A DNA stretch of 64,000 bases from Saccharomonospora cyanea NA-134 (GTDB lineage Bacteria; Actinomycetota; Actinomycetes; Mycobacteriales; Pseudonocardiaceae): contig NZ_CM001440.1 in NCBI RefSeq assembly GCF_000244975.1, positions 496,001 through 560,000 on the forward strand, written 5' to 3'. The notes below the pieces were generated by a model. That model did not search any database and was not told the origin of the DNA. It was given only the letters and a program-made list of their open reading frames with translations. The position numbers and the translations under genes were made by a program. Shown here piece after piece: positions 2,569 to 51,314 of this stretch (the stretch's first letter is position 1; every line of letters starts with the position of its first letter).

Positions 2569-2629
2569 CTCGCTTTTTGCCCGCTAAACGTGCGTGGGGA
2601 GACCGAGCGTTCAGCGGGCGAACTCTCTC
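2569..2629. repeat. Two copies of the 26-bp GCCCGC palindromic repeat (cores 2579, 2614)
   Basis: Two opposed, diverged copies of the interspersed repeat have cores GCCCGC at 2579-2584 and GCGGGC at 2614-2619. They lie in the 336-base interval between the convergent eccB and mycP. Apart from these copies, the next pair and the eccB hairpin, I see nothing in this interval. Confidence 0.75.
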
Positions 2630-2701
2630 GACAACCTTCAGCGCTGATCCGCTCCTGAGCGGGTCCCGGGAACGGGTGTGGCACGGTGCCAGCAACCTTG
2701 A

Positions 2702-2779
2702 ACAGCTTTTAGCCCGCTAAACACGTGTGCGGGGCCCAGCGGAGGTGATGCCGACCGTGTTTAGCGGGCTAAAAGCGTT
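2702..2779. repeat. Opposed pair of the 26-bp repeat forming a long inverted repeat
   Basis: Copies with cores at 2712 (GCCCGC) and 2764 (GCGGGC) face each other. Their arms share about 20 bases as exact reverse complements (CTTTTAGCCCGCTAAACACG and its complement), so the transcript could fold into a long hairpin. The pair lies immediately before the mycP stop and could act as a bidirectional terminator. Confidence 0.8.
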
Positions 2780-2784
2780 GGGAG

Positions 2785-4311
2785 TCAGACTCGCGCGGGC
2801 TTCTCGTCGTCCTTACGGTTGCGGCGAACGGTGTGGACCACGAAGAGGGTGATCACCAGAGCAGCGAGTGCACCGCCCGCGCCCGTCAACGCCACGATGG
2901 TCGGTGTCCAGTCGCGGTTCGACGCGGGAGGCATGTCGGAGGGCAGGCTCTCCGCCTGCGCGGGCTGCATGTCTTCTTCGGACGGCACGGTGGCCGTCAA
3001 CGCCGCCATGGGGTCGATGACGCCGTAACCCACGAAGTTGTCCCGCCCGCCCGAAGCCGCGGGATGTTGCGCCGTGAACTTGATCCGATGCATGACCTCG
3101 TAGGCGTTGAGCTTCGGGTACTTCGCACGCACAAGCGCCGCCAACCCGGCCACGTACGGCGCCGCGAAACTGGTTCCCTTGATTTCCTGCGTCTCACCGC
3201 CGTCGACCATCAGGTTCGCCAGGCCGTCGGATCCTGGCGCCGGGTCGAGCGAGATGATCCCGGTTCCCGGTGCGGCCACACTGACCCACGGCCCGTGCAT
3301 GCTGAAGTCGGCCACGCCGCCGGTCTCGTCGATGGCCGCCACGGACAGAACGTCCTCGGCGAACCACGGCGGCGTCACGATGGTCGTGGGGTTCTCGGCC
3401 AGCGCTTGGTCGTTCTGCTTGCAGTTGGTCGAGTCCGAGACGTTGCCCGCCGCCGACACGACAACGACGTCCTTGTCCTTGACCGCATAGTTGATGGCGG
3501 CCTGGAGTGCCTGTTCGTCCGCGGTGATGGGACCGTTGTTGGGGCGGCAGTTGTTGATGGAGATGTTGATGACCTGCGCGCCCGCGTCAGCCGCTTGGAC
3601 GATGGCCTTCGCGAGGGTTTTCAACGTGCCGGCGCCCTCGCTGCCTTGGGTACGGCTGTCCTGTGACGGCCCGGTGCCATGGGGCGATCCGCCGCCACCC
3701 GAACTCTCGTCCTCGGGCGCGTAGTTCTGGCTGGACTGCCTGATCGACAGGATTTCGACGTCGGGTGCGACGCCGATGAAGCCGATGCGGTCGGGTGTGT
3801 TCGCCGCGATGATGCCGGCGACCTCGGTGCCGTGACCGTCACAGTCCTTGAGGCCCTTGTCCCCCCTCACCACGTAGTCGCCGACGCCTTCGACGCCGTG
3901 TTTGAAGAAGGAGTGCTCCCTGACTCCGGTGTCGATCACCGCGACCTTGATCGGCTGCCTTGTTTCGGTGTCGACGCCGATGTGGCCCGTGGTCGAGCGC
4001 ATGAGGTCGTGGACCTCCTTGATGCGCAGGTACCGCTGGCCCCATGGCGCATTCTGGATGTCCTCGTTGTACTCGAGGTTGCGTTCGACGCACCCGACCT
4101 TCTGCTCGTATTTCTTGTCCGGTTGCCCGTCACCGGGCGGACGCTGACTCGGATCCACCGGCGGTGGCGTGGCCTGGTAGCCACCGGGGTCCTGGGACGC
4201 CGATTCGTCCTGTGCCCAAGCGGGCAGCGGCGCCAACATCGAGCTCCCGATGCCGATGGTGGCGGCGAGCGCCAACGCCCTGTGTCGTTTCATCGTCCGG
4301 GCCGAACGCAC
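2785..4311 (-). CDS. mycP: MycP mycosin, ESX-4-type subtilisin-like serine protease
   Basis: Mycosins are membrane-anchored subtilases (S8 family) that stabilise the ESX complex and cleave some substrates outside the membrane. The catalytic triad is visible: Asp127 in VAVIDTGV, His160 in DCDGHGTEVAG and Ser381 in GTSFAAPYVAG. The oxyanion Asn lies in VVSAAGN. A signal peptide covers residues 1-33 (ends PAWA). A C-terminal helix (about 469-492) is followed by a basic tail RRNRKDD. The GTG start at 4311 has AGGGGG about 6 bases upstream; ATG 4293 is the alternative. A Ser/Gly-rich insert lies at about residues 202-225. It follows eccD by 37 bases and is probably co-transcribed with it. Confidence 0.94.
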   Translation of the reverse strand: MRSARTMKRHRALALAATIGIGSSMLAPLPAWAQDESASQDPGGYQATPPPVDPSQRPPGDGQPDKKYEQKVGCVERNLEYNEDIQNAPWGQRYLRIKEVHDLMRSTTGHIGVDTETRQPIKVAVIDTGVREHSFFKHGVEGVGDYVVRGDKGLKDCDGHGTEVAGIIAANTPDRIGFIGVAPDVEILSIRQSSQNYAPEDESSGGGGSPHGTGPSQDSRTQGSEGAGTLKTLAKAIVQAADAGAQVINISINNCRPNNGPITADEQALQAAINYAVKDKDVVVVSAAGNVSDSTNCKQNDQALAENPTTIVTPPWFAEDVLSVAAIDETGGVADFSMHGPWVSVAAPGTGIISLDPAPGSDGLANLMVDGGETQEIKGTSFAAPYVAGLAALVRAKYPKLNAYEVMHRIKFTAQHPAASGGRDNFVGYGVIDPMAALTATVPSEEDMQPAQAESLPSDMPPASNRDWTPTIVALTGAGGALAALVITLFVVHTVRRNRKDDEKPARV

Positions 4312-4348
4312 GCGAACCCCCTGGAAGTCGTGGCGCTTGTGGTCTGTT

Positions 4349-5743: not shown

Positions 5744-5965
5744 CTTTTCGCCCCCTACCTGGAGATTTCGCCGCAGGGTGTTTATACCGCGTCGCGGAAA
5801 CAACCCGCCTGTGGGCCGGTAACCTTGCCGAACCGGCCCCATGGTGTCGTGATGCCGCCCTAGTATTAACGCACCTGGGCCACATGTGGGGCGGTTCCGG
5901 CGAAAGTCGCCGGTGCGCGTTCCCGCGCTGGCCGCCAGTCGCCGAGTCGAAGAGGGGTCCTTTCG

Positions 5966-9979: not shown

Positions 9980-9982
9980 GGT

Positions 9983-10099: not shown

Positions 10100-12049
10100 G
10101 TGACACTGCGGGTGGCGGTGGACTTCGGGACATCGAGCACCTGTGTCGTCGCATCGGTTAACGGCCGCGAACCTCAGGTCGTGGTCGTGGACGGGCAGCC
10201 GCTCATGCCCTCGGCGGTGTACGCCGCGCAGGACGGCACGGTCTTCGTGGGGCAGGAAGCCGAGCGACAGGCAGCTGTCGACCCGTCGCGGTTCGAGCCG
10301 CATCCGAAGCGGCGTATCGACGAGGGCGAGCTGCTCCTCGGTGACACGGTCCTGAGCGTGGTGGACGTCGTGCACGCCGTGTTGCGGCGCGCGGTGTCGG
10401 AGGCACGCCGGATCGCGGGAAACGTCGAGGTCTCGCTGCTGGTACTGACCCATCCCGCGGAGTGGGGTGCGCTGCGTACCCGGCTGCTGCGGCAGGCGGC
10501 AGGGCGGTTGGCCCACGAGGTCGCGTTGGTTCCGGAGCCGGTGGCGGCCGCCGTATACCACGCGGCGACGTTCGCTCCGGCTGAGGTGAACCAGGAGCGA
10601 ACCGTCGAGTTCAGCGGCCGCCCCGGCGACGCCATGGCGGTGCTGGATCTCGGGGGCGGCACCGTCGACGTCAGCGTGGTACGGCGTGCGCAACTCAACG
10701 GGCAGAACCGGTTCGAGGTGCTGGCGACGCGTGGAGACCCGAGTTTCGGCGGTGCGGACATCGACCAAGCCCTGCTGGAACACGTCGGATCGCTGGTGTC
10801 CAAGGCCGACCCGGCTGCCTGGGAGCAGCTCGTGCAGGGACGCGAGCTGGCCGACCGGCGCCGCCGACGCGTGTTGAGGCAGGACGTTCGGGGCGCCAAG
10901 GAGACGTTGTCACGGCACGCGTACACCGACGTGCCGATGCCGCCGCCGTTCGCGGACGCTCACGTGACGCGTGAGGACCTGGAACAGCTTGTGCGGACGC
11001 CGTTGGGACGGGCCGCCGAACTCGCGAGAGCGACGATCGAGGAAGCGGGACTGCGCCCGCAGCAGTTGACAGCCATCTTCCTCGTCGGCGGGTCGAGCCG
11101 GATTCCGATGGTGTCGAGGCTCGTGCACGAGCGGACGGGAGTGGTCCCCACCTCGCTCGACCAGCCGGAAACCGTCGTCGCCCGCGGTGCACTGCGCGCG
11201 GTGCAGCTGCTGCCCGACCGGACGGGAGTGTTGCCGGGCACCATGGCCGCGCGTTTCGCGGGCAAAACGTTGCCGCAGAGCGATCACCGCACCGAAGTCG
11301 TGGCCAAGCCCGGGGGATCGCCGGGGCAGAGGGGTCAGCAGAACGTCGGCCGAGCGCCGATGCCCGCACCGAGGGCCCCCGGCCCCGCGAGCCGGCCACC
11401 TGCTCCGAGAGGACCACTGCTCGCGCCGCCGTCTCCGCCTCGGGGACAACCGATGCCGGCGTCGTCTCACGCCATGCCGCCGCCCGGGCAGACCGGTGTC
11501 CGGAGGCGGAACCGTATCGCGATCGCGGCCGTGGTGACCGTGTTGGCGCTCGTGGCCACCGTGGTGGCGTTGACGCTCGCCATCGCCGAAGGAGGCGACC
11601 AGCCGGAGTCACAGGGGCGCACCTACGCGCAGTACTCGTACAAGTTCGTCGCTCCGGACGACTGGACGCAGACGGGTGACAACGTCGAGGCCCGGCAGGT
11701 GGTCGTGAAGCCGCAGGAGGCCCAGACCCCCGCCGACGACGATCTCGTGGTGGTCCAGGAGATCGTGTTGCCGTACGACGGCGGGGCGCAACGACAGCGT
11801 TTGGCCCGCGAACTTCGTGAGCTGACGAGCTCGAACCCCGGCGTCTACTCCGACTTCTCGGAGCACTACGAGTACGCGGACCGCGACGTCATCCATTACC
11901 GGGAGGACAAACCCGCCGCCACGGTGCACTGGTACGTCCTCGCGCACGGCACCGCGCAGGTGAGCGTCGGTTGTCAGGAAGCGCAGGTGCCAGCGCGGGT
12001 CCGTGTCGCCTGCGAGCAGATCGTCCGCACGCTCGAGTTCACCAACTGA
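10100..12049 (+). CDS. Hsp70-like type VII secretion-associated protein (Rv3446c family)
   Basis: Residues 1 to about 370 form an actin/Hsp70-type ATPase. Phosphate-1 is VAVDFGTSSTCVV, phosphate-2 is VLDLGGGTVDVSVV and the adenosine motif is FLVGGSSRIPMV. A Pro-rich linker, a membrane helix (about 471-492) and a roughly 150-residue extracytoplasmic domain follow, the last matching the type VII secretion-associated family seen beside ESX-4. It occupies the position of Rv3446c between eccC4 and the esx genes. Its role is not established; a chaperone-like or assembly role is inferred. The Hsp70 substrate-binding domain appears to be replaced by the linker and membrane anchor. The GTG start at 10100 has GGCAGGAG upstream. 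Confidence 0.85.
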   Translation: MTLRVAVDFGTSSTCVVASVNGREPQVVVVDGQPLMPSAVYAAQDGTVFVGQEAERQAAVDPSRFEPHPKRRIDEGELLLGDTVLSVVDVVHAVLRRAVSEARRIAGNVEVSLLVLTHPAEWGALRTRLLRQAAGRLAHEVALVPEPVAAAVYHAATFAPAEVNQERTVEFSGRPGDAMAVLDLGGGTVDVSVVRRAQLNGQNRFEVLATRGDPSFGGADIDQALLEHVGSLVSKADPAAWEQLVQGRELADRRRRRVLRQDVRGAKETLSRHAYTDVPMPPPFADAHVTREDLEQLVRTPLGRAAELARATIEEAGLRPQQLTAIFLVGGSSRIPMVSRLVHERTGVVPTSLDQPETVVARGALRAVQLLPDRTGVLPGTMAARFAGKTLPQSDHRTEVVAKPGGSPGQRGQQNVGRAPMPAPRAPGPASRPPAPRGPLLAPPSPPRGQPMPASSHAMPPPGQTGVRRRNRIAIAAVVTVLALVATVVALTLAIAEGGDQPESQGRTYAQYSYKFVAPDDWTQTGDNVEARQVVVKPQEAQTPADDDLVVVQEIVLPYDGGAQRQRLARELRELTSSNPGVYSDFSEHYEYADRDVIHYREDKPAATVHWYVLAHGTAQVSVGCQEAQVPARVRVACEQIVRTLEFTN

Positions 12050-12059: not shown

Positions 12060-12085
12060 GTCGTGTTTAGCGGGCAAAATCCGGT
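12060..12085. repeat. 26-bp palindromic repeat copy (core 12070)
   Basis: This single copy (TCGTGTTTAGCGGGCAAAAT) begins 11 bases after the stop of the Hsp70-like gene. The rest of the interval to 12243 should hold the promoter of the esx pair. Confidence 0.75.
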
Positions 12086-12960: not shown

Positions 12961-13464
12961 TCAGTGGGGCGCACCGACCTCGTACTGGGGCTTGTCGTTG
13001 AGGATGCGGATGCTGACGGTCCTCTGCCTGCCGGCCACGTCGACCGTGCAGTCGAACGTGTGCCCGGTGGTGATCTGCTGGTCCTCCGGACAGCTGACGT
13101 TGCTGACGTCGTGCTCGCCGTAACTCTCCCGCAGGACGGTGGTGACGCCCTCATGCAGTGAGGCCTGGTCGAGCACGTCGCCGGAGAAGACACCGCTGAA
13201 CCACGCGGCGGCTCCGCCACCTGCCAACAGCACGAGCGCGGTGGCCCCGATGATCCACGGCTTGCGTGACCTGGCACGTTTCGCGGGCGAATTGCCGTCG
13301 AACGCACCGAACCCGCCGTACTCGGACGCGAAGGACCCTCCGAACGCCGGAGTCGCCTGCGGGGGCGCGGCGTAGGGGTGCGGCTGTTGCGGGACCTGCC
13401 CGCTGGGAGGTCCCTGCGGGCCTTGCGGCTGCCACCACTGAGGCGCGCCGGGTGGCTGTGTCAT
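12961..13464 (-). CDS. DUF4333-like membrane-anchored protein
   Basis: The N-terminus is cytosolic, about 70 residues, rich in Pro, Gln and Gly. A basic stretch (KRARSRKPW) and one membrane helix (about 69-92) follow. The outer domain of about 75 residues has two cysteines (VSCPEDQQ and FDCTVDVAG) and the motif TTGHTFDCTV, which is typical of DUF4333 proteins of actinobacteria. These are cell-envelope proteins of unknown role. It lies convergent to the esx pair and 39 bases downstream of the lipoprotein gene on the same strand. The mycobacterial ESX-4 locus lacks both genes here. Confidence 0.7.
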   Translation of the reverse strand: MTQPPGAPQWWQPQGPQGPPSGQVPQQPHPYAAPPQATPAFGGSFASEYGGFGAFDGNSPAKRARSRKPWIIGATALVLLAGGGAAAWFSGVFSGDVLDQASLHEGVTTVLRESYGEHDVSNVSCPEDQQITTGHTFDCTVDVAGRQRTVSIRILNDKPQYEVGAPH

Positions 13465-13503
13465 GTGTCTTCCTCGTGTGCTCGTCCGGACTGCCTGTAC
13501 AGC

Positions 13504-14391
13504 TCACTCACGACTGCTGGTGATCTCGGCCATTCGGTCGTAGAACTCGTCGATCTCCTTGTCGGTGGTGAGCTCGGTCACCTCGTCGGGAGACGGCACG
13601 GCGGGGATCTCGTGCTCGGTCGGCGGTTCGAGGACCTCGTAGTGCTGCTTGATCTCGACCTCGTTGCCGTTGTCGGCCAGCAGGCCGTTCATCTCGATCT
13701 CTTTCAGATCGCCCTCGGGGCTGAGCAGGATGCGGGTGTCGATCACCTTGTCGAGCAGCGACTCCGGGATCTCCTCCAGCAGCCAGTCGGGGAGCACGAC
13801 GATTCGCTCCTCCAGGAAGATCCGCAGCGGCATGCCGATGGTGAGTTCCGTGCTGCCGTCGGCGAGGCTCTTCGCGGCCTTGTCCACCTCGGTGCTCTCC
13901 ATGGAGCGGTTGACCGCGGTGAAGATCTTGCAGACGGTGAGGTATCCGCCCCAGAAGCAGATGTCGAGCCCCTGACCGCTGTACGGCATCGACACCCACG
14001 GTGTCGGAGCGAGTGACTCGTAGTCGGGGCCGAGCAGGGTGTACTCGACGTCGCTGCCCGCGGGCAGGAGGAAGTCGCGGTAGTCGGCGGAGTTCCGGTT
14101 GGAGTGGTTCTTGTAGAAGCGCGTGGGGGGACTTCCGACCTGGATGGCCGTCACCGTGTTGTCACTCTTGAGCTCGCCGACGCGCATGAACGAGCGGAGC
14201 CTGCTCTTGCGAGGTTCGTTCTCGCCGAGGTCGTCGGCCAGCCGTTCGAGTGTGGAGGAGAACTTCGTTCCGACGTATTTCGCAACGCCGTCACCGTCCG
14301 GAATCGGTTCGCCCACGCGTCCGGTGGCGCAGCCGGCAGCGAGCAACAGAACGGCACCCAGTGCGACGACTCTGCGCAGTCGTTGTCTCAT
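13504..14391 (-). CDS. Putative lipoprotein of unknown function
   Basis: A clear lipoprotein signal is present: basic start RQRLRR, hydrophobic stretch and lipobox LLAAGC with Cys21 as the acylation site. The mature protein (about 275 residues) is acidic, with no domain I recognise. Two cysteines (DICFWGG and VCKIF) could form a disulfide. The hydrophobic MPYSGQG...GGYLTVCKIF region resembles substrate-binding lipoproteins only loosely. It is divergent from rplM. The proximity to ESX genes may be incidental. Confidence 0.75.
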   Translation of the reverse strand: MRQRLRRVVALGAVLLLAAGCATGRVGEPIPDGDGVAKYVGTKFSSTLERLADDLGENEPRKSRLRSFMRVGELKSDNTVTAIQVGSPPTRFYKNHSNRNSADYRDFLLPAGSDVEYTLLGPDYESLAPTPWVSMPYSGQGLDICFWGGYLTVCKIFTAVNRSMESTEVDKAAKSLADGSTELTIGMPLRIFLEERIVVLPDWLLEEIPESLLDKVIDTRILLSPEGDLKEIEMNGLLADNGNEVEIKQHYEVLEPPTEHEIPAVPSPDEVTELTTDKEIDEFYDRMAEITSSRE

Positions 14392-15588: not shown

Positions 15589-15656
15589 ACCGCGTTCAGC
15601 CCGCGAAAGATGGTCGGGGCGGGCATCGTCACCGTGTTTAGCGGACTGAATACGGT
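15589..15656. repeat. Opposed pair of the 26-bp repeat, cores 42 bp apart (15599, 15641)
   Basis: The first copy has core GCCCGC and the second GCGGAC (one change), separated by a 16-base GC-rich linker. The pair fills much of the gap between the rpsI terminator and glmM. Confidence 0.85.
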
Positions 15657-17229: not shown

Positions 17230-17535
17230 GTGGCGGGCGGTCAGACCGTCGATCCAGGGAAGTTGAATGCGGCGGGTACGGCCTATGAGCAGGTGGGTGG
17301 GGAACTCGTCGACGAGGCGAGCCGCATCGAGACCGGGGTGTCCAGCGCGCAGTTCGGCAAGGCGTGGACCCATGCTGGATCCCACTACGCCGATGCGATC
17401 AAGCTGTACAAGGACCGCGTGAAAAGCCACGGTGACAAGGCCACTGATTTCGGTGATCGGTTGTCCAAGGCGGCGAAATCCTACGAGGACGGCGAGGCTG
17501 TCAGCACTGACATGATCGCCTCGAAGCAGGTGTGA
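17230..17535 (+). CDS. EspC-like (DUF2580) putative type VII secretion substrate
   Basis: This 101-residue helical protein has a Gly-rich start (AGGQTVDPGKLNAAG) and two long helices. Its shape and AKAWxxAG-like centre (FGKAWTHAGSHYADAI) match the EspC/DUF2580 family of ESX-secreted proteins. YEDGE near the C-terminus fits the YxxxD/E secretion signal. It has no signal peptide. The GTG start at 17230 follows GAGGGGG. It overlaps the next gene by four bases and so is coupled to it. The family call is by pattern; export through the ESX-4 system of this locus is inferred. Confidence 0.72.
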   Translation: MAGGQTVDPGKLNAAGTAYEQVGGELVDEASRIETGVSSAQFGKAWTHAGSHYADAIKLYKDRVKSHGDKATDFGDRLSKAAKSYEDGEAVSTDMIASKQV

Positions 17536-20021
17536 GCGTGTATCCAACCCCGTGGGAAGTGCAGGAGACCAAGGAACGCGCCAACGAGGAGTTCACCTCC
17601 GACGAGCTCGACTACATGCGGTCGATGCTCGATGACGAGGATGTGTCCAGCGAAGTCAAGAACAACTTCCTCTACGCACTGTCGAATGCCGGCCGTCTGA
17701 GTGAGGAAGAGATCGACCGTTACGCGCCTCAGGTCGGCGCCGACGCCCAAGACGTCAAATGGGGCGGCCGTGACGTCGACGAGAACATGCGCAACGCCCG
17801 GACCGCGCTCGGCACCGCGCGATCCGAGAATCTCGACGCCGACGTGCGCCGTGCGTATGACGGTTTGGGCACAGGTGGGTTTTCCACATCGGACGAAATC
17901 ATCGACCAGACCGAGGTCGTGATCCAGTGGTTCGAGCAGTTCTACTCACGTTACGAGGCTGCTCAGCAGGTCATCGAAACGTCCGTCGTCCCGGAGACGG
18001 AGCGCCGCGAACTGCCGACAGCGGACGTCAGCGCCTTCACCGGGGGCGGCGACGAGTTCGGCACCGCCGAGTACACGCACTCGGGAATCGATCCGCAGAG
18101 TCTGCGAGCCGGACTGGACGAGTTCCGCGGTATCGATTTCGCCGCCTTCCGAGCTGACGCGGAAATGTTGCGGTCGGCAGGTGCTGCCGTGGCCGACAAG
18201 GCCGCCGCACTCGACTCGGCCTGGAAGGGCACCGACGACTGGACAGGCGACGCCAAGGCCGCGGCCGAGCAGGTAAACAAGACCCTGTCGGAGGGCTCGG
18301 AGACATTGCAGGATGCGCTGACCACTGCGGCGGACGGGATCGACGAGGTGACAGCGATTCAAGAGGAGACGGTCGTCCGCTTCTCGGAGGAGCTGTTCCG
18401 GCTCTACGGCAGCGGCAAGATGGGCGAGTTGACCGTGGCCGACGTCGACGAGGCGCTTGGCACCGTCCACCTGGCCTCAGCGATGCTTGACTCGTGGGGC
18501 GGATCCTTTCTCGCGGGAATCCGAGATGCATACACCGAAGCACAAGATCAGGCGAAGGAAGTGCTCTCCGGCTTTTGCCAGACCTACCAGAGCTTGGCAG
18601 GTCAGGTGCATGAGCAGGCTGCAGCTCATGTCGAGCACATAAACAACAACTACGGCGTGATCGTGCAGGGGCTGAGTCAAGCGATTCAGACAGACCCAGC
18701 TGCGGACATGGACATGGGAGGGGACGTTCAGAGCCCAGGTCCTGACATGGGAGGCCCCGGTGGCGCACCTGGTGGCGGTATGCCGGGTGGTGGCGTGCCA
18801 GGAGGCGGGGCCCCCGGTGGCGGGGCCCCCGGCGGAGGAGCCCTGGGCGGTGGAGCCACGGTCCCGAGCGCGGAGGAACTCCTCGGTGAGCAGCCTGACA
18901 CGGCGACCAATCCCGTGACTGGCGAGCCGCTCGAGGTCGACCCGGCAACTGGCGAGCCTTATCCCATCGACCCCGAGACAGGCGAGGCGATCACGGATGC
19001 GGACGGGCCGGGCACGCTGACGGTCGAGCAAGGTGACCAGAAGTTCACCATGACGGAGCCCGGTGAGGACGGAACGATGAGCATCACCGTCGAGGGCGGC
19101 GACGGTGAACCCGGCGAGTACCGGCTGGACTTCGGGACTGAGTCCGAACTCGGTGAGGCACCGGGCGGGGATGGGGTCGAGGAGTTCGGCCCACAGGGTT
19201 CTGGTGGTGAAGCGCAGCAGGTTTACCGGCCGGGTCCAGACGGCAAGATCCATGTGAAGGATGGGGATCTCGAGATCACTGCTGAACAGCCGGAAGGCCC
19301 CGACGGTCCGACAGTGGTCACGGTCGACAACGGCAAGGGTGACCCCGTGACCTACACCCTCGGCGCTGACCAGGAGGGGCAGGTGTTACCCGCGGAAGAA
19401 GGCGTGCGTGTGATGCCGGCTCATGCGGATCCTGACCTCGACCCCCGCCGCGCAGCCGAACCTCCGACCGAGGCCAGTGGGGGTCAGGGTGGGGGCAACC
19501 CCGGAAGTGGTCCGGTGGATGCTGCGTCTGCCTCCACAGCGGGGCTTCCGGATGCGTCCGCCGGTGCGGCTCCCTCGTTCGACGGGAACAGCGACGCACC
19601 TGATGAGGCCTTCGCCGGAGATGACAGCGGATCCAGTGCCACACACGCGGCTGCCGTTGGCGGGGGCGGGAATGCCTTCGGTGGTGGCGGTGGTGGTGGT
19701 GAGCTGTTCGGGGAGGACTCGGACGGCTCCGGCCCGTCCCGGTCATCAGGCGCGGGACTTGGTGTGGCACCAGGTGGTGAGGCACCTGCAGCGGTGGCGC
19801 AGGGAAGCGGTGGTGCGGTCTCGAGCGGTGGTGGCATGGGCATGATGGGCGGCATGGGCGCTATGGGGGGCGGCGCTGGTGGCGGTCAGGGTGGTGACCA
19901 GGAACGGAGCTCGAACGCGTACCGCATCGACGGCAACATCTTCGAAGTCTCGAGTGGAGCTATACGAGTCAGCGGAGTGCTTGGCGAAAGCAACGAGGTA
20001 CCGGTGCGGTTCAGCCGCTGA
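17532..20021 (+). CDS. Large WXG-like, Gly-rich putative type VII secreted protein
   Basis: This 829-residue protein has two halves. Residues 1 to about 395 are helical and resemble an ESX substrate core, with a WxG-type turn (DSAWKGTDDWTGDAKAAAEQV). Residues about 395-829 are low-complexity. They contain tandem PGGG repeats (about 405-440), a TGEP repeat (NPVTGEPLEVDPATGEPYPIDPETGEA), acidic beta-rich sequence, and Met/Gly-rich stretches (GGGMGMMGGMGAMGGG). It ends in a short conserved-looking beta unit (NIFEVSSGAIRVSG). No signal peptide or membrane helix is seen. It is coupled by GTGA overlap to the EspC-like gene, as EspC/EspA-type pairs are. I infer a cell-surface or secreted role; the exact function is unknown. 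Confidence 0.68.
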   Translation: MSVYPTPWEVQETKERANEEFTSDELDYMRSMLDDEDVSSEVKNNFLYALSNAGRLSEEEIDRYAPQVGADAQDVKWGGRDVDENMRNARTALGTARSENLDADVRRAYDGLGTGGFSTSDEIIDQTEVVIQWFEQFYSRYEAAQQVIETSVVPETERRELPTADVSAFTGGGDEFGTAEYTHSGIDPQSLRAGLDEFRGIDFAAFRADAEMLRSAGAAVADKAAALDSAWKGTDDWTGDAKAAAEQVNKTLSEGSETLQDALTTAADGIDEVTAIQEETVVRFSEELFRLYGSGKMGELTVADVDEALGTVHLASAMLDSWGGSFLAGIRDAYTEAQDQAKEVLSGFCQTYQSLAGQVHEQAAAHVEHINNNYGVIVQGLSQAIQTDPAADMDMGGDVQSPGPDMGGPGGAPGGGMPGGGVPGGGAPGGGAPGGGALGGGATVPSAEELLGEQPDTATNPVTGEPLEVDPATGEPYPIDPETGEAITDADGPGTLTVEQGDQKFTMTEPGEDGTMSITVEGGDGEPGEYRLDFGTESELGEAPGGDGVEEFGPQGSGGEAQQVYRPGPDGKIHVKDGDLEITAEQPEGPDGPTVVTVDNGKGDPVTYTLGADQEGQVLPAEEGVRVMPAHADPDLDPRRAAEPPTEASGGQGGGNPGSGPVDAASASTAGLPDASAGAAPSFDGNSDAPDEAFAGDDSGSSATHAAAVGGGGNAFGGGGGGGELFGEDSDGSGPSRSSGAGLGVAPGGEAPAAVAQGSGGAVSSGGGMGMMGGMGAMGGGAGGGQGGDQERSSNAYRIDGNIFEVSSGAIRVSGVLGESNEVPVRFSR

Positions 20022-21450: not shown

Positions 21451-21476
21451 ACCGTGTTCTGCCCGCGAAACGTGGT
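21451..21476. repeat. 26-bp palindromic repeat copy (core 21461)
   Basis: This well-conserved copy, with flanks ACCGTGTTCT and CGTGGT around GCCCGC, lies in the hydrolase-glmS divergent gap, 89 bases before the glmS start. Confidence 0.85.
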
Positions 21477-25719: not shown

Positions 25720-25787
25720 ACCACGTTTTGCCCGCGAAACGTGGTTCCAGGGGACCCGCCGACCATGTTCCGCGGGCAGAACACGGT
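25720..25787. repeat. Opposed pair of the 26-bp repeat, cores 42 bp apart (25730, 25772)
   Basis: The first copy is almost perfectly symmetrical (arms ACCACGTTT and AAACGTGGT); the second is inverted (core GCGGGC). They are separated by 16 bases and sit between the divergent SGNH hydrolase and xylB genes. Confidence 0.9.
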
Positions 25788-29493: not shown

Positions 29494-29967
29494 GTGACGC
29501 AGGTGAGTGTCGAGCTGCCCACCCCCGACGACGCCATGGAGTTCGGCCGGGCGCTGGGCAGGTTGCTGCGGGCGGGTGACCTGGTGTTGCTGGCAGGCCC
29601 GCTCGGGGCGGGCAAGACCACGATGACCAGAGGGATCGCCGAAGGCATGGGAGTGTCGGGGCGGGTGAGCTCACCGACGTTCGTGCTCGCGCGAGTGCAC
29701 CCGGCGGGGGAGTCGGGAGTGCCTCTCGTGCACGTCGACGCCTACCGGCTGGGTGGTGACCTCGCCCAGCTCGACGACCTGGACCTCGACACCGAACTCG
29801 ACCGCGCCGCGCTGGTGGTCGAATGGGGTGAGGGCATGGCCGAACGGCTCGCCGAGGACCACCTCGTCGTGCGCCTCGACCGGCGCCACGACGACGTCCG
29901 CGTGGTCACGCTCGAACCGCACGGCGGGTGGACGGCGCGAGTGTCCTCGGCATCTTTCGCGGGCTGA
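29494..29967 (+). CDS. tsaE: tRNA t6A biosynthesis ATPase TsaE
   Basis: TsaE works with TsaB and TsaD to form N6-threonylcarbamoyladenosine at position 37 of ANN-decoding tRNAs. The Walker A motif is LAGPLGAGKTTMTRGI (about residues 33-48); SSPTFVLARVH, HVDAYRL and VEWGEGM follow. It has 157 residues and a GTG start after GCAGGAAGGAACCC. The last codons (Ser-Phe-Ala-Gly-stop) are supplied by a copy of the 26-bp repeat. In mycobacteria tsaB follows directly; here 3.7 kb of other genes intervene. Confidence 0.95.
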   Translation: MTQVSVELPTPDDAMEFGRALGRLLRAGDLVLLAGPLGAGKTTMTRGIAEGMGVSGRVSSPTFVLARVHPAGESGVPLVHVDAYRLGGDLAQLDDLDLDTELDRAALVVEWGEGMAERLAEDHLVVRLDRRHDDVRVVTLEPHGGWTARVSSASFAG

Positions 29968-30022
29968 TCACGGGGGGCTGCGCGCGCCCCCCGCCGGGCG
30001 TGTTTCGCGGGCTGATCGTGGT
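29949..30022. repeat. Two 26-bp repeat copies flanking a hairpin (cores 29959, 30007)
   Basis: Both copies have the GCGGGC core, 48 bp apart and in the same orientation. The first overlaps the 3' end of tsaE. Between them lies a GC hairpin. The pair marks the left edge of the streptogramin cassette. Confidence 0.75.
29972..29992. terminator. Hairpin between convergent tsaE and tetR
   Basis: A perfect 7-bp stem (GGGGGGC with GCCCCCC) and a 7-base loop lie five bases after the tsaE stop. It could serve both strands; there is no T-run. Confidence 0.6.
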
Positions 30023-30033: not shown

Positions 30034-30672
30034 TCAGGTACGGACGGCGTAGTCGCCGAACGACGGTTCGAGGGCGGCGAAGGCGGTCTCCGCGTCCCGG
30101 GTGATCCGCTCCGCGACGGCGTCCTGCTCCCCGCCTTCGAGAACGAGACGCACGGTCTCGTCGAAGAGCAGCCGCAGTACGGTGTTGAGCTGGGCCGCGA
30201 CGAGCCGGGGAACGAGGTCGTCCGCGGCTGTCCCCGTCTCCTCGGCGAGGGCCTGCGCGAGCGACTTCTCGCGGTAGTCGTGGAACTGGCGCAGGCGTGA
30301 CGCGAGGACGGGGCTGTCCGCCACCATGCGGGCGAACTGCGGCCCGGCGAACCCTGCCATCGGATCCCGCTCAGCCACCTGCGTCAGGTAGGCCGCCCTC
30401 ACCGCTGCCAGCGCCCCTTCCCCCGGCCGTCGCGCGCGGACGGCGTTCGCGGGCATGTCCGCGAAGCGCTCGTTGAGTTCCCACGCCAGGTCTTCCTTGC
30501 GGGGGAAGTAGTTGGTGACCGTCATCTTGGAGACCTGGGCGGCGGCGGCGATCTCGGCGATCGTCACGTTGTCGAAGCCGCGCTCCATGAACAGTCTCGT
30601 CGCGTGCCGGGAGATGTTGTCCCTGGTCTGACGTTTCTTCAGTTCCCTGAGACCCAGCTGTTCCATGCCCAT
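30034..30672 (-). CDS. TetR-family repressor of the streptogramin cassette
   Basis: This 212-residue one-component regulator has an N-terminal helix-turn-helix, about residues 15-62: RDNISRHATRLFMERGFDN, VTIAEIAAAAQVSKMTVTNYFPRKEDL. The C-terminal ligand domain is typical of actinobacterial TetR proteins. It is divergent from vat-vgb with 91 bases between the starts, so it probably represses that operon and itself; a streptogramin or related ligand would release it. ATG 30672 is used; 30666 is also possible. The ligand is inferred. Confidence 0.9.
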   Translation of the reverse strand: MGMEQLGLRELKKRQTRDNISRHATRLFMERGFDNVTIAEIAAAAQVSKMTVTNYFPRKEDLAWELNERFADMPANAVRARRPGEGALAAVRAAYLTQVAERDPMAGFAGPQFARMVADSPVLASRLRQFHDYREKSLAQALAEETGTAADDLVPRLVAAQLNTVLRLLFDETVRLVLEGGEQDAVAERITRDAETAFAALEPSFGDYAVRT

Positions 30673-31420: not shown

Positions 31421-32328
31421 CACGGACTTTCATCACCGAGTATCCCGTGGTGGCCGAGCCCGGCAGCGGTACCGGTCCTTACGGCGTCACCAGCGGGCCG
31501 GACGGCGCACTGTGGTTCACCATGGCTCGTTCCGGACGCATCGGCCGGTTCGTGCCCGGTGAGGAGCCCACGATCCACCGGCTCGACCCGGACTGCCAGC
31601 CCACCGTCATCGTCAGCGGGCCGGACGGTGCGCTCTGGTTCACCGAGTACCAGGGCCACCGCATCGGCCGGATCACCACCGAAGGCGAGGTGACCGAGTT
31701 CTCCCCGCCCACGGCGGAGGCGGGCCCGTACGGGCTCACGGTGGGGCCGGACGGCGCGTTGTGGTTCACCGAGTTGGGTGCCGATCGCATCGGCCGTGTC
31801 ACGACCGACGGAGAGCTCACCGAGTACCCGCTACCGCTGCGCGGCGCGTTCCCGTCGATCATCGACACCGGTTCCGACGGCGCGCTGTGGTTCACGCTGA
31901 ACCAGGCGAACGCCATCGGACGCATGGCACTCGACGGCACCGTGACGGTGCACGAGCTGCCCACCGAGGCCGCGGGACCCGTGGGGCTCACCGCGGGAGC
32001 CGACGGTGCGCTGTGGTTCGTCGAGATCATGGCCGGGCAGGTCGGTCGCATCACGACCGACGGGGAGATCACCGAGTACCCGTTGCCCGACCGCGCCGCG
32101 AAGCCGCACGCCATCACCGCGGGCGACGACGGCAGGCACTGGTTCACCGAGTGGGGAGCCGGGCGCGTCGGTTCGATCACGTCCGACGGCGTCGTCGAGG
32201 TGCACGAGCTCCCGAGTCCGGGAAGCGAACCGCACGGCATCACCGTCGGCCCCGACGGGGCCGTCTGGACCGCGCTTGAGAACGGCGCTCTGGCGCGCGT
32301 CGACGTCGACCCCGGGAGGAAGCACTGA
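31417..32328 (+). CDS. vgb: Virginiamycin B lyase (streptogramin B lyase)
   Basis: Vgb is a seven-bladed beta-propeller that linearises group B streptogramins by a Mg-dependent elimination, without hydrolysis. The blade repeat [10 protein letters not shown] recurs through the protein. A His for catalysis lies in [20 protein letters not shown] and another in [14 protein letters not shown]. It has 303 residues, the usual length. The GTG at 31417 overlaps the vat stop by four bases (GTGA), and the gene is in turn coupled to the VOC gene. Propellers with this repeat also occur in proteins of other function; the linkage to vat makes lyase activity likely. Confidence 0.9.
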
Positions 32329-33379: not shown

Positions 33380-33447
33380 ACCGTGTTTCGCCCGCGAAAC
33401 ACGGTCGGGGTGGCCCTCCCCACGATGTTTCGCGGGCATATTCCGGT
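33380..33447. repeat. Opposed pair of the 26-bp repeat, cores 42 bp apart (33390, 33432)
   Basis: The first copy is a perfect palindrome (12-base arms ACCGTGTTTCGC and complement around CC) and best defines the family. It begins at the base after the DUF5701 stop. The second copy is inverted after a 16-base linker. Confidence 0.95.
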
Positions 33448-33501: not shown

Positions 33502-33611
33502 ATGACTTCTCGCGGGCTTGTCGCGGCCAGGCGGCTGCCGCTGGCCACGTTTCGCGGGCGGAACACGGTGGCCGGGCGGACCCCGACCACGTTCAGCCCG
33601 CGAAACGTGGT
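33502..33611. repeat. Three 26-bp repeat copies in a 42-bp register (cores 33512, 33554, 33596)
   Basis: Three copies have cores spaced 42 and 42 bp, orientation reverse-reverse-forward, with 16-base linkers. The last is nearly perfect (arms ACCACGTT and AACGTGGT). Together with the preceding pair they fill most of the 280 bases before tsaB. I see no gene here. Confidence 0.9.
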
Positions 33612-41752: not shown

Positions 41753-42643
41753 ATGCCGATCGTCGAGAAAGTGCTGCGAACCGCCGCGTTCGGTGGAAGC
41801 CGGGACGCCGAACAGCCGATGCCGGACGGCGTGACCGTCGCGTCCGCGCCGCTGCGGAGCTGGCTCCAGGGCGTGGTGTTCGGTGCGTGCGGGCGGTACG
41901 CGGCGGCGGCGTCGCTGCTGGAGCCTCTGAGCCGCCACCGCGACGCCCTGGTCGCGTCGCTGGCGGCCTCGGCCCTGGCCTCCCACCGGCGGCAGCTCGG
42001 CGGCCATGCTGCCGCGCTGCGCCTCGACGGCATGGCGCTGCGCAGGGCGGCCGAGGCGGAACCGCCGGGTGGTTCGGGGTGGCGCTGCGACGACCCCGAC
42101 GGCCTTGACGCCGCGGGTGCGCTGGTCGACGCCCTGCTGGGCCTGGCGGCGGACCACCTCGGGCTGGGCAGGCTGGCCGCGTCGGGAGCGCTGGTGGCCA
42201 GGGCCGCTCAGGTGGTCGCCGTGAGTGGCTGCTGGCGCGCCGAGACCCGGCTGGGGTGGGTGCGTGCCGAGCTCGCTCTCGCGTCCGGAAGGCCGGCCGA
42301 CGGTGTTCTGCCCGCGAAACGTGCCCTGGCGATCGCGGAGCGGCGCGGTGCCCACCGGCACGCCGCCAAGTCGGCGCTGGTGCTCGGGGCGGCGTTGGCG
42401 GCCGTGGGGGAGCGTGAAGGGGTCGAACGGGCGCGGGCACTCGTCGAATCGGCATTGGCGGCAGCCGAGCGAAACGGATGGCGATCATTGACATGGCCCG
42501 CTCTCGCGCTTCTCGCCGATCTGGAACCGGAACAAGCTGTTTGGAATCGCTCCAGAGTTACCGATGAGTTGAGTGTGTTACTCGACTCAACCGATCCGGT
42601 GGGACGGCGCTTGGCTCACGACTCGCCATGGGTGCCGATCTAG
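41753..42643 (+). CDS. Conserved actinobacterial protein, Rv3415c-like
   Basis: This 296-residue protein is almost entirely alpha-helical and rich in Ala, Leu and Arg, in a pattern like tetratricopeptide repeats (RYAAAASLLEPLSRHRDALVA, LGLGRLAASGALVARAAQVV). It occupies the place of Rv3415c between whiB3 and sigD. It is divergent from whiB3. The function is unknown; a scaffolding role is a guess from the fold. ATG 41753 is chosen; a start at 41717 would add 12 residues. A copy of the 26-bp repeat lies inside the gene at 42300-42325 and is read in frame as GVLPAKRAL. Confidence 0.72.
   Translation: MPIVEKVLRTAAFGGSRDAEQPMPDGVTVASAPLRSWLQGVVFGACGRYAAAASLLEPLSRHRDALVASLAASALASHRRQLGGHAAALRLDGMALRRAAEAEPPGGSGWRCDDPDGLDAAGALVDALLGLAADHLGLGRLAASGALVARAAQVVAVSGCWRAETRLGWVRAELALASGRPADGVLPAKRALAIAERRGAHRHAAKSALVLGAALAAVGEREGVERARALVESALAAAERNGWRSLTWPALALLADLEPEQAVWNRSRVTDELSVLLDSTDPVGRRLAHDSPWVPI
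42300..42325. repeat. 26-bp repeat copy inside a coding sequence (core 42310)
   Basis: The core and right arm (TTCTGCCCGCGAAACGTG) match the intergenic family closely. It keeps the frame of the Rv3415c-like gene. This is the only copy wholly inside a gene in the window. Confidence 0.75.
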
Positions 42644-43380: not shown

Positions 43381-43422
43381 ATGGGTCGGTACCGCCCGCC
43401 ACGCAGTGCCTCTGATCACCGA

Positions 43423-44263: not shown

Positions 44264-44264
<1 letters not shown>
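43692..44264 (+). CDS. sigD: ECF sigma factor SigD
   Basis: This sigma-70 family ECF factor has 190 residues. Region 2 has RPLVVRYCRARVG...SADDVAQEVCLAVLTALPSYRDQGRPFLAFVYGIAQHKVADAHR. Region 4 has LQVLPDKQREIVVLRVVVGLSAEETAEAVGSTPGAVRVAQHRALARLRK. The downstream rsdA overlaps by one base, the sigD-rsdA pair of M. tuberculosis (Rv3414c-Rv3413c). ATG 43692 is chosen over TTG 43683; the binding site is weak in both cases. Confidence 0.93.
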
Positions 44265-45292
<1,028 letters not shown>

Positions 45293-45313
45293 CGGGCTGG
45301 TCACACCCGGCGG

Positions 45314-45335
45314 GCGCCCTCGGGATGGAGGGCGC
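45314..45335. terminator. Hairpin between convergent rsdA and DUF5319 genes
   Basis: An 8-bp stem (GCGCCCTC with GAGGGCGC) and a 6-base loop lie 22 bases after rsdA. It can serve both strands. Confidence 0.65.
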
Positions 45336-45350
45336 GGTCGGACGGTGTTC

Positions 45351-45737: not shown

Positions 45738-45790
45738 GATCCAGCACGGTACCGGGCCATCCCCGGGGTGCGTCCAGATACCATCGCTAA

Positions 45791-47389
<1,599 letters not shown>

Positions 47390-47449
47390 TTCGCGCTCCG
47401 TCGACGTTCACGGAAAAAGGCCTCACGGTCGGAAAAGAAGGGATTTCAC

Positions 47450-48583: not shown

Positions 48584-48652
48584 ACTCGCTGGGCAACCGA
48601 TCGGTAACTTACCTCTGGTCAGGATAGAGGGTCCCCGTCTACCCTCTTACCT

Positions 48653-50371
48653 GTGACTGGGCGTAACACCTACCGTGTTGACTACGACGTCGTGGTCATC
48701 GGGTCGGGCTTCGGCGGCAGTGTGGCCGCTCTGAGGTTGACGGAGAAGGGCTACCGGGTCGCCGTGGTCGAGGCGGGACGCCGGTTCGCCGACGACGAGT
48801 TCGCCTCGACGTCCTGGGATCTTCGCCGCTACCTGTGGGCGCCGGCTCTGGGCTGCTTCGGCATCCAGCGGATCCACCTGCTCAAGGACGTCATGGTGCT
48901 GGCGGGCGCGGGTGTGGGCGGCGGTTCGCTCGTCTACGCGAACACGCTGTACCGGCCGCTGCGGCCGTTCTACACAGACCGGCAGTGGGCCCACATCACC
49001 GACTGGGAGTCGGAACTCGCCCCCCACTACGACCAGGCGAGCAGGATGCTCGGCGTGGTCACCAACCCCACGGTGACGCCCTCCGACGAGGTGATGCGCA
49101 AGGTGGCGGCCGACATGGGTGTGGCCGACACCTACCACCCGACTCCCGTCGGCGTGTACTTCGGCGAGCCCGGCAAGCGCGTGTCCGACCCCTACTTCGG
49201 GGGAGCCGGACCCGACCGCACCGGCTGTACCGAGTGCGGTTCGTGCATGACCGGATGCCGGGTCGGCGCGAAGAACACGCTCGTGAAGAACTACCTGTAC
49301 CTCGCCGAGCGGTGCGGTGCGAAGGTGATCCCCCTGACCACGGTGACGGCCGTGCGCCCGCGCGGTGACGACACGTACGAGGTGGACGTTCGCAAGACGG
49401 GCACCTCGTCGCGGCGCTTCCGCACCACGCTCACCGCGAGCCACGTCGTGTTCGCCGCGGGCACGTGGGGCACCCAACGGCTGCTGCACGACATGCGCGA
49501 CAAGGGCGTGCTTCCGCACCTGTCCGGACGGCTGGGCGAGCTGACCCGGACCAACTCCGAGGCCATCGTCGGTGCCGGCCGCACCACCGTCGACCCGGAC
49601 CGCGACTACAGCCGCGGGGTGGCCATCACGTCGTCGTTCCACCCCGACCCCGACACCCACATCGAGCCGGTGCGGTACGGCAAGGGCAGCAACGCCATGA
49701 GCCTGTTGCAGACGGTCGCCACCGACGGTGCGTCGGAGGTGCCCCGCTGGAAACAGATCCTGCGGTTCATGCGCAAGCATCCCGTCCAGACGCTCAAGCT
49801 GCTCAACGGCTACCGGTGGAGCGAGCGCACGGTGATCCTGCTGGTGATGCAGAGCCTGGACAACTCCATCACCACCTACACGAGGAAGGGCTGGTTCGGG
49901 CGGCGCCGTTACACGTCCCGGCAGGGTCACGGCACGCCGAACCCGACGTTCATCCCGGCGGGTTACGAGGCGAACCGGCGGACGGCCGAGCACATCGGCG
50001 GCATCGCGGGCGGCACGTGGGGCGAGGTGTTCGACATCCCGCTCACGGCGCACTTCATCGGGGGCGCTCCCATCGGCACCGATCCCGGCAACGGCGTCAT
50101 CGACCCGTACCACCGCGTGTTCAACTACCCCAACCTGCACGTCGTCGACGGCACCGCGATCACCGCCAACCTCGGGGTGAACCCTTCGCTGACCATCACC
50201 GCGCAAGCCGAGCGGGCGTTCTCGCTCTGGCCCAACAAGGGTGAGCCGGACCCGAGGCCGGAGCCGGGCGAGCCGTACCGGCGGGTCGACCCCGTGCCGC
50301 CGAGGGCGCCCGCCGTGCCTTCGCACGCCCCGGCCGCCCTGCGGCTCACCCCGGTGCGCGGGGACACCTGA
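48653..50371 (+). CDS. GMC-family FAD oxidoreductase (ChoD-like)
   Basis: This flavoprotein has 572 residues and occupies the place of Rv3409c (choD). The N-terminal Rossmann motif is VVIGSGFGGSVAALRL and the FAD-contact loop is VLAGAGVGGGSLVYANTL. The C-terminal half has GGAPIGTDPGNGVIDPYHRVFNYPNLHVVDGTAI, where His is a likely catalytic residue. A Cys cluster CTECGSCMTGCRVGAKNT resembles an iron-sulfur site and is typical of this subfamily. It is called cholesterol oxidase by similarity, but the natural substrate is uncertain. GTG start. Confidence 0.87.
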   Translation: MTGRNTYRVDYDVVVIGSGFGGSVAALRLTEKGYRVAVVEAGRRFADDEFASTSWDLRRYLWAPALGCFGIQRIHLLKDVMVLAGAGVGGGSLVYANTLYRPLRPFYTDRQWAHITDWESELAPHYDQASRMLGVVTNPTVTPSDEVMRKVAADMGVADTYHPTPVGVYFGEPGKRVSDPYFGGAGPDRTGCTECGSCMTGCRVGAKNTLVKNYLYLAERCGAKVIPLTTVTAVRPRGDDTYEVDVRKTGTSSRRFRTTLTASHVVFAAGTWGTQRLLHDMRDKGVLPHLSGRLGELTRTNSEAIVGAGRTTVDPDRDYSRGVAITSSFHPDPDTHIEPVRYGKGSNAMSLLQTVATDGASEVPRWKQILRFMRKHPVQTLKLLNGYRWSERTVILLVMQSLDNSITTYTRKGWFGRRRYTSRQGHGTPNPTFIPAGYEANRRTAEHIGGIAGGTWGEVFDIPLTAHFIGGAPIGTDPGNGVIDPYHRVFNYPNLHVVDGTAITANLGVNPSLTITAQAERAFSLWPNKGEPDPRPEPGEPYRRVDPVPPRAPAVPSHAPAALRLTPVRGDT

Positions 50372-50421
50372 GTCAGCGGGTGCCGCGCCCAGCACCGGCA
50401 GTGCAGTCACCCGGTGGTTGG

Positions 50422-51252
50422 ATGCCTCGCATGGACGTGGGCATGGACGTGACCGAGGTGCTGGCCGAGCTGGAGGCACACTGCGTCGAGACGCTGGGCG
50501 AGCGGGACGGGCCGCGCATGGCGGCGCTCGCGCGACGCGGCTACCGCATCGCCCCGGCCCGTGAAGCCGCCGCACCCGCCGGCCGGAGCCGTCTCGGCGG
50601 TGGCGCGCTGCTGGAGCCGGTGACCGAATGGCCGCATGTCGAGGGGATACCGCTCAATCTCATGGCGGTCCTCGACGTCGATGTGCTGGCCCCCTGGCTC
50701 GGCGAGGAGCTGCCAGCCGTCTCGGGGCTGCTCAACTTCTTCTATCTCGAGCCCGACATGCCCTACGCCGAATACCGGCGCTTCGACGTGTTCACCGATT
50801 CGCGGTGCTGGCGGGTCGTCGCCGCTGATCCGCGGTACGCGGTGGAGAGGCTCGCTCCCTCGCCCGCGTACGTGTTCGACGCTCGTCCGGCAGCCGCCGC
50901 ACCGATCATCACCCTGCCCAGCTACGACGAACCGGTGGTGCAGGCTCTGCTTGGTTCCGACGACGAGGACGACATGCCGCGCTGGTTCGCCGCGTTCGAT
51001 CTCTCTGGCGAGTGGAGACCAGGCAGCGATGATCATCCGGCCTACCACTGGGGTCGCCATCACCGTGCGTTCGGCTGGCCATGGCCACTCCAGAGCGGGT
51101 TCCTGCGGGACGGCGAGGTGCATCTCCTTCAGCTCGACAGCGACGAACAGTGGCAGTTCGGCGACTTCGGTCTGCTGTACTACGTGATCCCGCTCGACGC
51201 TCTGCGAGCGGGCGACTTCAGCCAGGCCCGCGTCGAGGTGCAGTGCCACTGA
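50422..51252 (+). CDS. DUF1963 (YwqG-like) family protein
   Basis: This soluble protein of 276 residues has the YwqG/DUF1963 features: RLGGGALLEPVTEWPHVEGIPLNLMAVLDVD, NFFYLEPD, LLQLDSDEQWQFGDFGLLYYVIP. The function is unknown. Several start codons lie close together (50380 GTG, 50422 ATG, 50431 ATG); 50422 is chosen with a nearby GGTGG. It lies between choD-like and guaA, and no operon link is clear. Confidence 0.8.
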   Translation: MPRMDVGMDVTEVLAELEAHCVETLGERDGPRMAALARRGYRIAPAREAAAPAGRSRLGGGALLEPVTEWPHVEGIPLNLMAVLDVDVLAPWLGEELPAVSGLLNFFYLEPDMPYAEYRRFDVFTDSRCWRVVAADPRYAVERLAPSPAYVFDARPAAAAPIITLPSYDEPVVQALLGSDDEDDMPRWFAAFDLSGEWRPGSDDHPAYHWGRHHRAFGWPWPLQSGFLRDGEVHLLQLDSDEQWQFGDFGLLYYVIPLDALRAGDFSQARVEVQCH

Positions 51253-51288
51253 TCCGGGCCGCTGATCCGGCCTCGTGCGGGGTGTCCG

Positions 51289-51314
51289 ACCGTGTTTTGC
51301 CCGCGAAACGTGCC
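51289..51314. repeat. 26-bp palindromic repeat copy (core 51299)
   Basis: ACCGTGTTTTGCCCGC and CGAAACGTG match the family closely. It lies in the gap between the DUF1963 gene and guaA, 120 bases before the guaA start. Confidence 0.85.

Follow-up and report, generated by a model that had tools for sequence, protein, structure and literature searches.

What are the short palindromes that recur along one housekeeping region of the Saccharomonospora cyanea NA-134 chromosome, and what could hold them there? S. cyanea is a soil bacterium, and the stretch of DNA analyzed here (the window; 64,000 nucleotides) comprises bases 496,001-560,000 of its one-contig, 5,408,301-bp genome. The window has a G+C content of 69.5%, and the value reported for the genome is 69.74% (PMC3910552). 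A sequence-only reading of the window had described at least 19 interspersed 26-bp near-palindromes and offered two identities: a repetitive extragenic palindromic (REP)-like element moved by a REP-associated tyrosine transposase (RAYT), or a site for an abundant nucleoid or chromosome-organizing protein. Their sequence and distribution show that the repeats form a genuine array, regional and conserved, of what are likely binding sites for a protein; the best reading is that it marks a chromosome domain. Our preferred interpretation, probable though far from secure, is that a dimeric DNA-binding protein binds them cooperatively, marking or packaging one defined segment of the chromosome.

The repeat unit is a 26-bp dyad with the consensus ACCGCGTTTNGCCCGCNAAACGCGGT. 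Its half-sites are mirror images except at the center, where nearly every copy carries an asymmetric CC on one strand, making each site directional. All 19 cores reported previously lie where the sequence-only reading placed them, with one letter corrected (the core at 15641 reads GCGGAC, not GCGGGC); the copies align without gaps, and the one described as a perfect palindrome with a two-base center is exactly that. From these copies we built a scoring matrix, which was then refined over 12 stretches of 10 genomes of the genus. At 12 bits or more, the matrix recovers 287 sites in 1.01 Mb of genus stretches and 2 in Markov-shuffled copies, a contrast inflated by training and counting on the same stretches; plain-pattern scans agree with it.

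With the site threshold set at 14 bits, a scan of 220 kb of the S. cyanea genome yielded 27 sites, 20 in the window and 7 upstream of it (genome positions 485,053-494,316). Together they span 485.05-547.31 kb, or approximately 62 kb. Four further places score between 9 and 14 bits, one of which (423,760) lies outside the segment. Seventeen of the 19 copies first described reach the threshold and two are degenerate, while three copies above 20 bits had been missed (Table 1).

Whole-genome searches revealed that the array is confined to this segment. With at most one mismatch, all 14 matches fall at 492.6-547.3 kb of 5.41 Mb, and a reversed control pattern gives a single match. With three mismatches allowed over 16 fixed bases, 25 of 30 matches (a total that counts some sites on both strands) lie at 485.0-547.3 kb; the five elsewhere compare with 11 control matches genome-wide. 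Called gaps of at least 60 nt hold a site in 13 of 39 cases inside the segment and in 0 of 74 in the flanks (400-620 kb). A genome-wide repeat is excluded for the S. cyanea genome: the scan proposed in the sequence-only reading finds matches concentrated in the ~62-kb segment and, elsewhere, below the control level. A DnaA-type Walker motif at base 1,246 of the genome, together with parS sites (zero to one mismatch) at 5,404,708, 5,405,479, and 5,405,544, puts the start of the window about 0.5 Mb from the replication origin (oriC). In S. cyanea, the segment runs from rplO-secY through a type VII secretion locus, glmS, and groEL to guaA.

A survey of related genomes, the other check proposed at the outset, showed that the array is a shared trait of the genus. 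It occurs in all 12 Saccharomonospora genomes, with 22-48 sequence-model matches in each (E 0.1). Among the genus matches listed (the best 150, with some draft contigs unplaced), the cluster accounts for all but one pair, which is in genome G005; two one-mismatch matches far from the cluster in G010 are near the level of the control pattern. Across the family, at least five one-mismatch matches were found in 31 of 249 genomes and 8 of 46 genera: g1 (Saccharomonospora, 12/12), g31 (1/4), g32 (Amycolatopsis, 9/16), g35 (2/2), g37 (2/2), g55 (2/2), g57 (1/1), and g60 (2/2). The positive genera include those of Amycolatopsis and Prauserella. The remaining family genomes contain 0-4 matches, with 0-7 per genome for the control pattern, and the two weakest positives (G084 with five matches, G011 with six) are not significant by the one-mismatch count alone.

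At least 120 stretches of named genomes contain an exact match to an 18-base pattern; the 80 listed belong to Amycolatopsis, Saccharomonospora, Prauserella, and metagenome-assembled genomes labeled Amycolatopsis, Pseudonocardiaceae, or Actinomycetes. Within the class, a less sensitive exact search found matches in 2 of 394 genomes, S. cyanea (four) and G636 (one). Viral contigs yielded 12 stretches with one match each and no array. At 10 bits or more, the matrix detected nothing in the array-less relatives G014, G018, and G023 and one match of 14.4 bits in G036; dyad counts were silent in array-less outgroups, but the same counts recovered only the array of G009 and missed those of G000 and G001. 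We found no account of such an array among the open-access titles and abstract openings listed, often a small share of the papers matched and a scope that omits subscription journals and preprints, and the exact core strings are absent from the open PMC literature. The available text of the S. cyanea genome paper lacks the string "palindrom" (PMC3910552), and the available main text of the RepRanger paper names neither Saccharomonospora nor Amycolatopsis (PMC12306157).

The genera carrying the array have the core TTYNGCCCGCNRAA in common. Their outer arms differ yet remain palindromic, reading ACCGCG/CGCGGT in Saccharomonospora, ATCGCG/CGCGAT in Amycolatopsis, TGCACG/CGTGCA in g55, and, with one mismatch, GCCGCG/CGCGCC in g37. 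Such genus-specific palindromic arms are as expected if a protein and its sites co-evolve.

The array also occupies the same chromosomal location across genera. All eight genomes examined from six other genera (G070, G041, G065, G067, G047, G222, G147, and G246) carry it in the same segment, partly so in g35, where three of four fetched pieces map to the segment and one does not. The orthologues around the sites include rpoBC, fusA, tuf, ribosomal-protein operons, secY, map, infA, rplQ, truA, eccB, a subtilase gene (mycP), eccD, eccC, an HSP70-like gene, rplM, rpsI, glmM, glmS, alr, tsaE, tsaB, tsaD, groEL, guaB, and guaA, each genome or piece covering part of this list. Pfam supports 20 genes of the S. 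cyanea segment (including truA, a WXG100 gene, and an FGGY kinase gene) plus the HSP70-like gene; rpoBC, fusA, tuf, rplM, rplO, and rplQ were named by eye.

Even individual gaps are shared. All 10 genus genomes scanned, and 6 others, have sites in the eccB-mycP gap; the corresponding numbers are 9 and 6 for rplO-secY and 9 and 5 for map-infA. In four single genomes the array spans at least 110-171 kb, some fetched stretches ending near the last site. In other genera it extends to rpoBC and beyond, and in Amycolatopsis it reaches more than 100 kb to the right of the window start (G222) and approximately 90 kb to the left (G147).

Within the segment, sites are concentrated outside genes. Called genes make up 80.5% of the spans in 10 genus genomes but contain 40 of 281 sites; both figures are low, some genes such as truA being uncalled. 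The intergenic bias noted from the window is upheld, but the claim of a single exception is not: in S. cyanea, two sites lie in the HSP70-like gene (11248 and 11794), two in truA upstream of the window, and one (42300) in a putative open frame. Site density per kilobase is 4.3 in convergent gaps, 2.4 in tandem gaps, and 1.57 in divergent gaps, and few sites lie less than 50 nt from start codons. This bias and avoidance are as expected for promoter-sparing structural sites, and they are also common for extragenic elements.

Neighboring sites maintain preferred distances. We collected adjacent sites 27-100 bp apart, counting one per gap and distance in the genus and all in five other genera (n = 142): 64 are separated by 42-43 bp, 23 by 31-33 bp, and 11 by 52-53 bp. 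These intervals of roughly three, four, and five helical turns suggest proteins touching on one DNA face. Preferred distances in Amycolatopsis are 36-37 and 56-58 bp, and those in g35 are 32 and 44-46 bp. In 33 pairs spaced exactly 42 bp, the linkers agree at 44% in the better orientation and at 41% when shuffled. Had a composite unit been copied, its linker should have been kept as well; conservation of the distance alone speaks against such a unit.

The motif itself is held far above drift. A site is retained in 81 of 86 gap-genome pairs, and 76 diverged orthologous sites still average 31.6 bits. An equal amount of random change would leave a mean of 3.5 bits, or 17.6 bits if only results of at least 9 bits are kept, as in a scan.

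From these patterns we infer protein binding, a structural effect on the segment, and a cellular purpose. A dimeric protein would bind the predicted 26-bp sites, neighboring sites being bound cooperatively with the proteins side by side on one helix face; the bound protein might bridge or condense the segment, which would then form a domain, anchored or insulated, comparable to the one that MatP creates at the terminus. Of the two identities first proposed, a site for a chromosome-organizing protein fits best, without the genome-wide spread that this had implied, as the sites mark one conserved segment. A bolder version is tentative, and we would sooner doubt it than rely on it: the array could be a lineage-specific marker, in which a protein, possibly of a new class of site-specific organizer, assembles along ~30 to 100 phased palindromes and makes the segment, with its ribosomal-protein, RNA-polymerase, type VII secretion, and chaperonin genes, a separate domain.

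Several observations weigh against the preferred interpretation. No binding protein was found for the sites, nor did gene-content comparison give a DNA-binding candidate gene within the array segment. In Amycolatopsis the array is present in 9 genomes and missing in 7 (0-2 matches each), which makes it dispensable. In five of six aligned genus gaps, the columns of the sites show no excess of conservation over alignable flanks, arguing against simple base-by-base conservation. The 10.5-bp signal is weak without the 42-43-bp class (R 0.30, n 78), and in the genus alone (R 0.36) a period of 10.5 bp is no sharper than 9.5-10 bp.

Confinement, strict in Saccharomonospora, is looser in Amycolatopsis and g35, and this too counts against the interpretation. 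Many g35 sites lie on other contigs, the motif occurring on several in genome G045; this spread provides a useful contrast for array growth. Some Amycolatopsis matches lie outside the stretches fetched, for example in G110 at 7.02 Mb, and three of these genomes (G222, G042, and G110) have a single site outside the main segment at one common locus, adjoining a 74-aa pspC-looking gene and a second groEL (names by eye). G246 has sites elsewhere beside DUF445-looking genes. The far pair in G005 (3,850,636-3,850,702), the only one among the genus matches listed, directly follows an N-acetylmuramoyl-L-alanine amidase gene (Pfam), and its palindrome appears by eye to exceed 26 bp. Amycolatopsis also contains many letter-for-letter identical copies, some in short tandem runs, so copying occurs there. 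These copies and runs, with the matches elsewhere in g35 and Amycolatopsis, would suit a spreading element.

The best-surviving rival, unlikely in our estimation, takes up this last point: a non-autonomous hairpin element resembling REPs or miniature inverted-repeat transposable elements, multiplied locally and kept without a function of its own. Palindromic form, a mostly extragenic position, and convergent-gap enrichment all fit it, as do the identical copies and tandem runs of Amycolatopsis, the dispersed copies of g35, and the distant G005 pair. The Y1 transposase family (PF01797), however, has matches in 4 of the 12 genus genomes and is absent from the other eight, S. cyanea among them, and no GTAG/GTGG head was visible by eye in alignments of 19 flanked sites and of 90 sites. 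Such an element also fits poorly with a single region (holding all 27 S. cyanea sites), fixed spacing between unrelated linkers, the same gaps across genera, and a motif far above drift. We thus rejected the RAYT-moved REP element of the sequence-only reading.

Somewhat less likely again is a regional regulator or silencer of transcription, similar to KorB or KorA, with the repeats as its operators and the genes of the segment as its targets. In plasmid RK2, the KorA operator is GTTTAGCTAAAC and the KorB operator TTTAGC(C/G)GCTAAA, with TTTAGC as the common half-site, and the two operators lie 32-33 bp apart at korAp (PMC2680271). KorB slides on DNA and silences at a distance (PMC11790492). 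The array resembles this system in its half-site and its ~32-bp spacing, but its sites favor convergent over divergent gaps and flank unrelated housekeeping genes. KorB operators were further rejected on the two-base center of the array motif and because 11 of 12 genus genomes lack a second ParB_N protein.

Those 11 genomes have one ParB_N match each, and G009 has a second on another contig. The ParB_N gene adjoins parS in all ten genus genomes with an exact parS, and canonical parS lies beside parB and dnaA, apart from the array. The helix-turn-helix segment of ParB, RIGRSRPVITNTIRLL, is identical in the 12 Saccharomonospora genomes and in array-less G012, G013, and G014 (three family genera) and differs in G025 and G028 (other families), in a comparison that left out G015 and G027. 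With a single ParB_N protein in those 11 genomes and a helix-turn-helix matching that of array-less genera, a second or re-specified ParB was rejected as the binder. ParB-parS itself was likewise dismissed: the array motif is unlike the parS consensus GTTTCACGTGAAAC in center and length.

We consider it improbable that gyrase, or some other general enzyme or nucleoid protein, prefers the repeats as places to relieve supercoiling in a highly transcribed segment. Genes for ribosomal proteins and groEL do lie in the segment, and the array of other genera reaches rpoBC; all of these are highly transcribed. Yet 38 of the 46 family genera searched show no array, and array-less G014, G018, and G023 have an unchanged gene order in the compared parts; a patchy, genus-specific motif is hardly what a general enzyme would produce.

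The weakest candidate is an RNA hairpin acting as a terminator or mRNA-stability element, for which convergent-gap enrichment and a stem of up to 11 pairs could speak; the arms match beyond shuffles at 3 of 11 pairs (z > 5) and weakly at a fourth, with relatedness not removed, and a 90-site set agrees. It is unlikely, and the least probable of the readings considered: across 177 tandem-gap sites read on the sense strand, G-T mispairs barely outnumber A-C mispairs (145 versus 135), and T makes up 11.6% of the next 12 nt without a T-run, as the first description had held in setting standard terminators aside. The window has no Rfam match at gathering score, and confinement to one segment would go unexplained.

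A protein that reads the predicted sites was sought by comparing gene content. We selected S. cyanea genes present in at least three array-positive stretches and absent (below 33% identity) from the stretches of G014, G018, and G023. These array-less stretches cover part of the 220 kb, and the comparison did not extend to genes left of the array. The array-correlated genes are 112, 113, 114, 123, and 124 (the FGGY kinase gene) inside the array and 151 just to its right. Gene 112 is a small gene beside a WXG100 gene with weak matches in array-less stretches, gene 113 encodes a DUF4333 protein, and gene 114 has no Pfam match and appears lipoprotein-like by eye. The TetR gene at 30034-30672 was rejected as the binder, being found in only four other genus genomes. 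An autoregulation lead, in which far sites would lie beside the gene of the binder, was also abandoned: no common regulator adjoins the far sites of Amycolatopsis, G246, and G005.

Table 1. Copies of the 26-bp repeat in the S. cyanea window (positions counted from its first base)
Feature	Position	Strand	Score (bits)	Context
Site	2569..2594	+	28.4	CC center on + strand; convergent gap eccB-subtilase (mycP)
Weak/degenerate copy	2604..2629	-	11.4	
Site	2702..2727	+	31.6	
Site	2754..2779	-	35.4	52 bp from preceding site
Site	11248..11273	-	30.5	Within HSP70-like gene; not in the sequence-only reading
Site	11794..11819	+	20.3	Within HSP70-like gene; not in the sequence-only reading
Site	12060..12085	-	30.2	Directly after HSP70-like gene
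Site	13273..13298	-	30.6	Not in the sequence-only reading
Site	15589..15614	+	32.7	Gap rpsI-glmM
Site	15631..15656	-	28.5	Core GTCCGC; 42 bp from preceding site
Site	21451..21476	+	34.7	Upstream of glmS
Site	25720..25745	+	39.0	Top score in S. cyanea genome
Site	25762..25787	-	28.9	42 bp from preceding site
Site	29949..29974	-	20.6	Overlaps tsaE end
Site	29997..30022	-	29.8	
Site	33380..33405	+	34.2	Perfect palindrome, CC center; gap before tsaB
Site	33422..33447	-	17.9	42 bp from preceding site
Very degenerate copy	33502..33527	-	<9	
Site	33544..33569	-	32.7	
Site	33586..33611	+	37.8	42 bp from preceding site
Site	42300..42325	+	29.7	Downstream of groEL; inside putative open frame
Site	51289..51314	+	35.0	Upstream of guaA; final site of the array

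Three other features of the window were noted. A DUF4333 gene and a lipoprotein-like 270-aa gene lie at 12961-14316, between the type VII secretion genes and rplM; they are present in array-positive genera and not in the stretches of G014, G018, and G023. What looks like a pair of type VII secretion substrates is encoded at 17230-20021: a 101-aa gene that weakly matches WXG100, then a gene for a glycine-rich protein of ~820 aa without a Pfam match. A coding region at 31474-32088 contains direct repeats at a distance of 126 bp and perhaps encodes a repeat-built protein such as a beta-propeller, a guess made by eye.

A conserved array in a housekeeping segment, carried by some members of one genus and missing from others, would let the purpose of a bacterial chromosome domain be tested in nature, and it would offer a direct route to a new DNA-organizing protein. 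Since 9 of the 16 Amycolatopsis genomes have the array and 7 lack it, this protein can be sought by gene-content comparison there. To our knowledge, region-marking site systems are few and are all tied to the origin, the terminus, or nucleoid occlusion. If the proposed domain is real, it would, as far as we know, be the first dedicated one at neither origin nor terminus.

Comparison with known systems places the array closest to those that mark part of a chromosome. REPs and bacterial interspersed mosaic elements (BIMEs) carry a GTAG/GTGG head by the palindrome, and some REPs are listed with few copies (PMC2817692), so that copy number alone is not decisive. The array shares with them extragenic palindromes, sometimes paired in alternating orientation, and differs in having no such head that we could see, 22-48 matches per genus genome, and unrelated linkers. 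Like ParB/parS, it consists of dyads of GTTTC-type half-sites in several copies per region; its center, however, is 2 bp longer, and canonical parS is separate, beside oriC. With RK2 KorA/KorB it shares the half-site TTTAGC and a distance of 32-33 bp between cooperating operators, whereas its center has two bases (Kor operators have none or one) and its location is chromosomal. We treat this likeness as a lead, hinting at a binding mode and not at membership.

The sites of MatP (matS, in the Ter macrodomain), Noc (Noc-binding sites, NBS), and SlmA (SlmA-binding sites, SBS) are each recognized by one protein, number tens of copies, and are unevenly spread, and the Noc site is given as 14 bp long (PMC4726725). 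The array motif is longer than the Noc site, has an asymmetric center, and is often paired at three to four helical turns. Whereas MatP, Noc, and SlmA sites cover the terminus or most of the chromosome, the array occupies ~62 kb (more in other genera) beside housekeeping operons, about 0.5 Mb from oriC. It nevertheless resembles all three in marking part of the chromosome with tens of copies, and, as with MatP/matS, its sites are confined to one segment and conserved there, throughout Saccharomonospora and less strictly in Amycolatopsis and g35.

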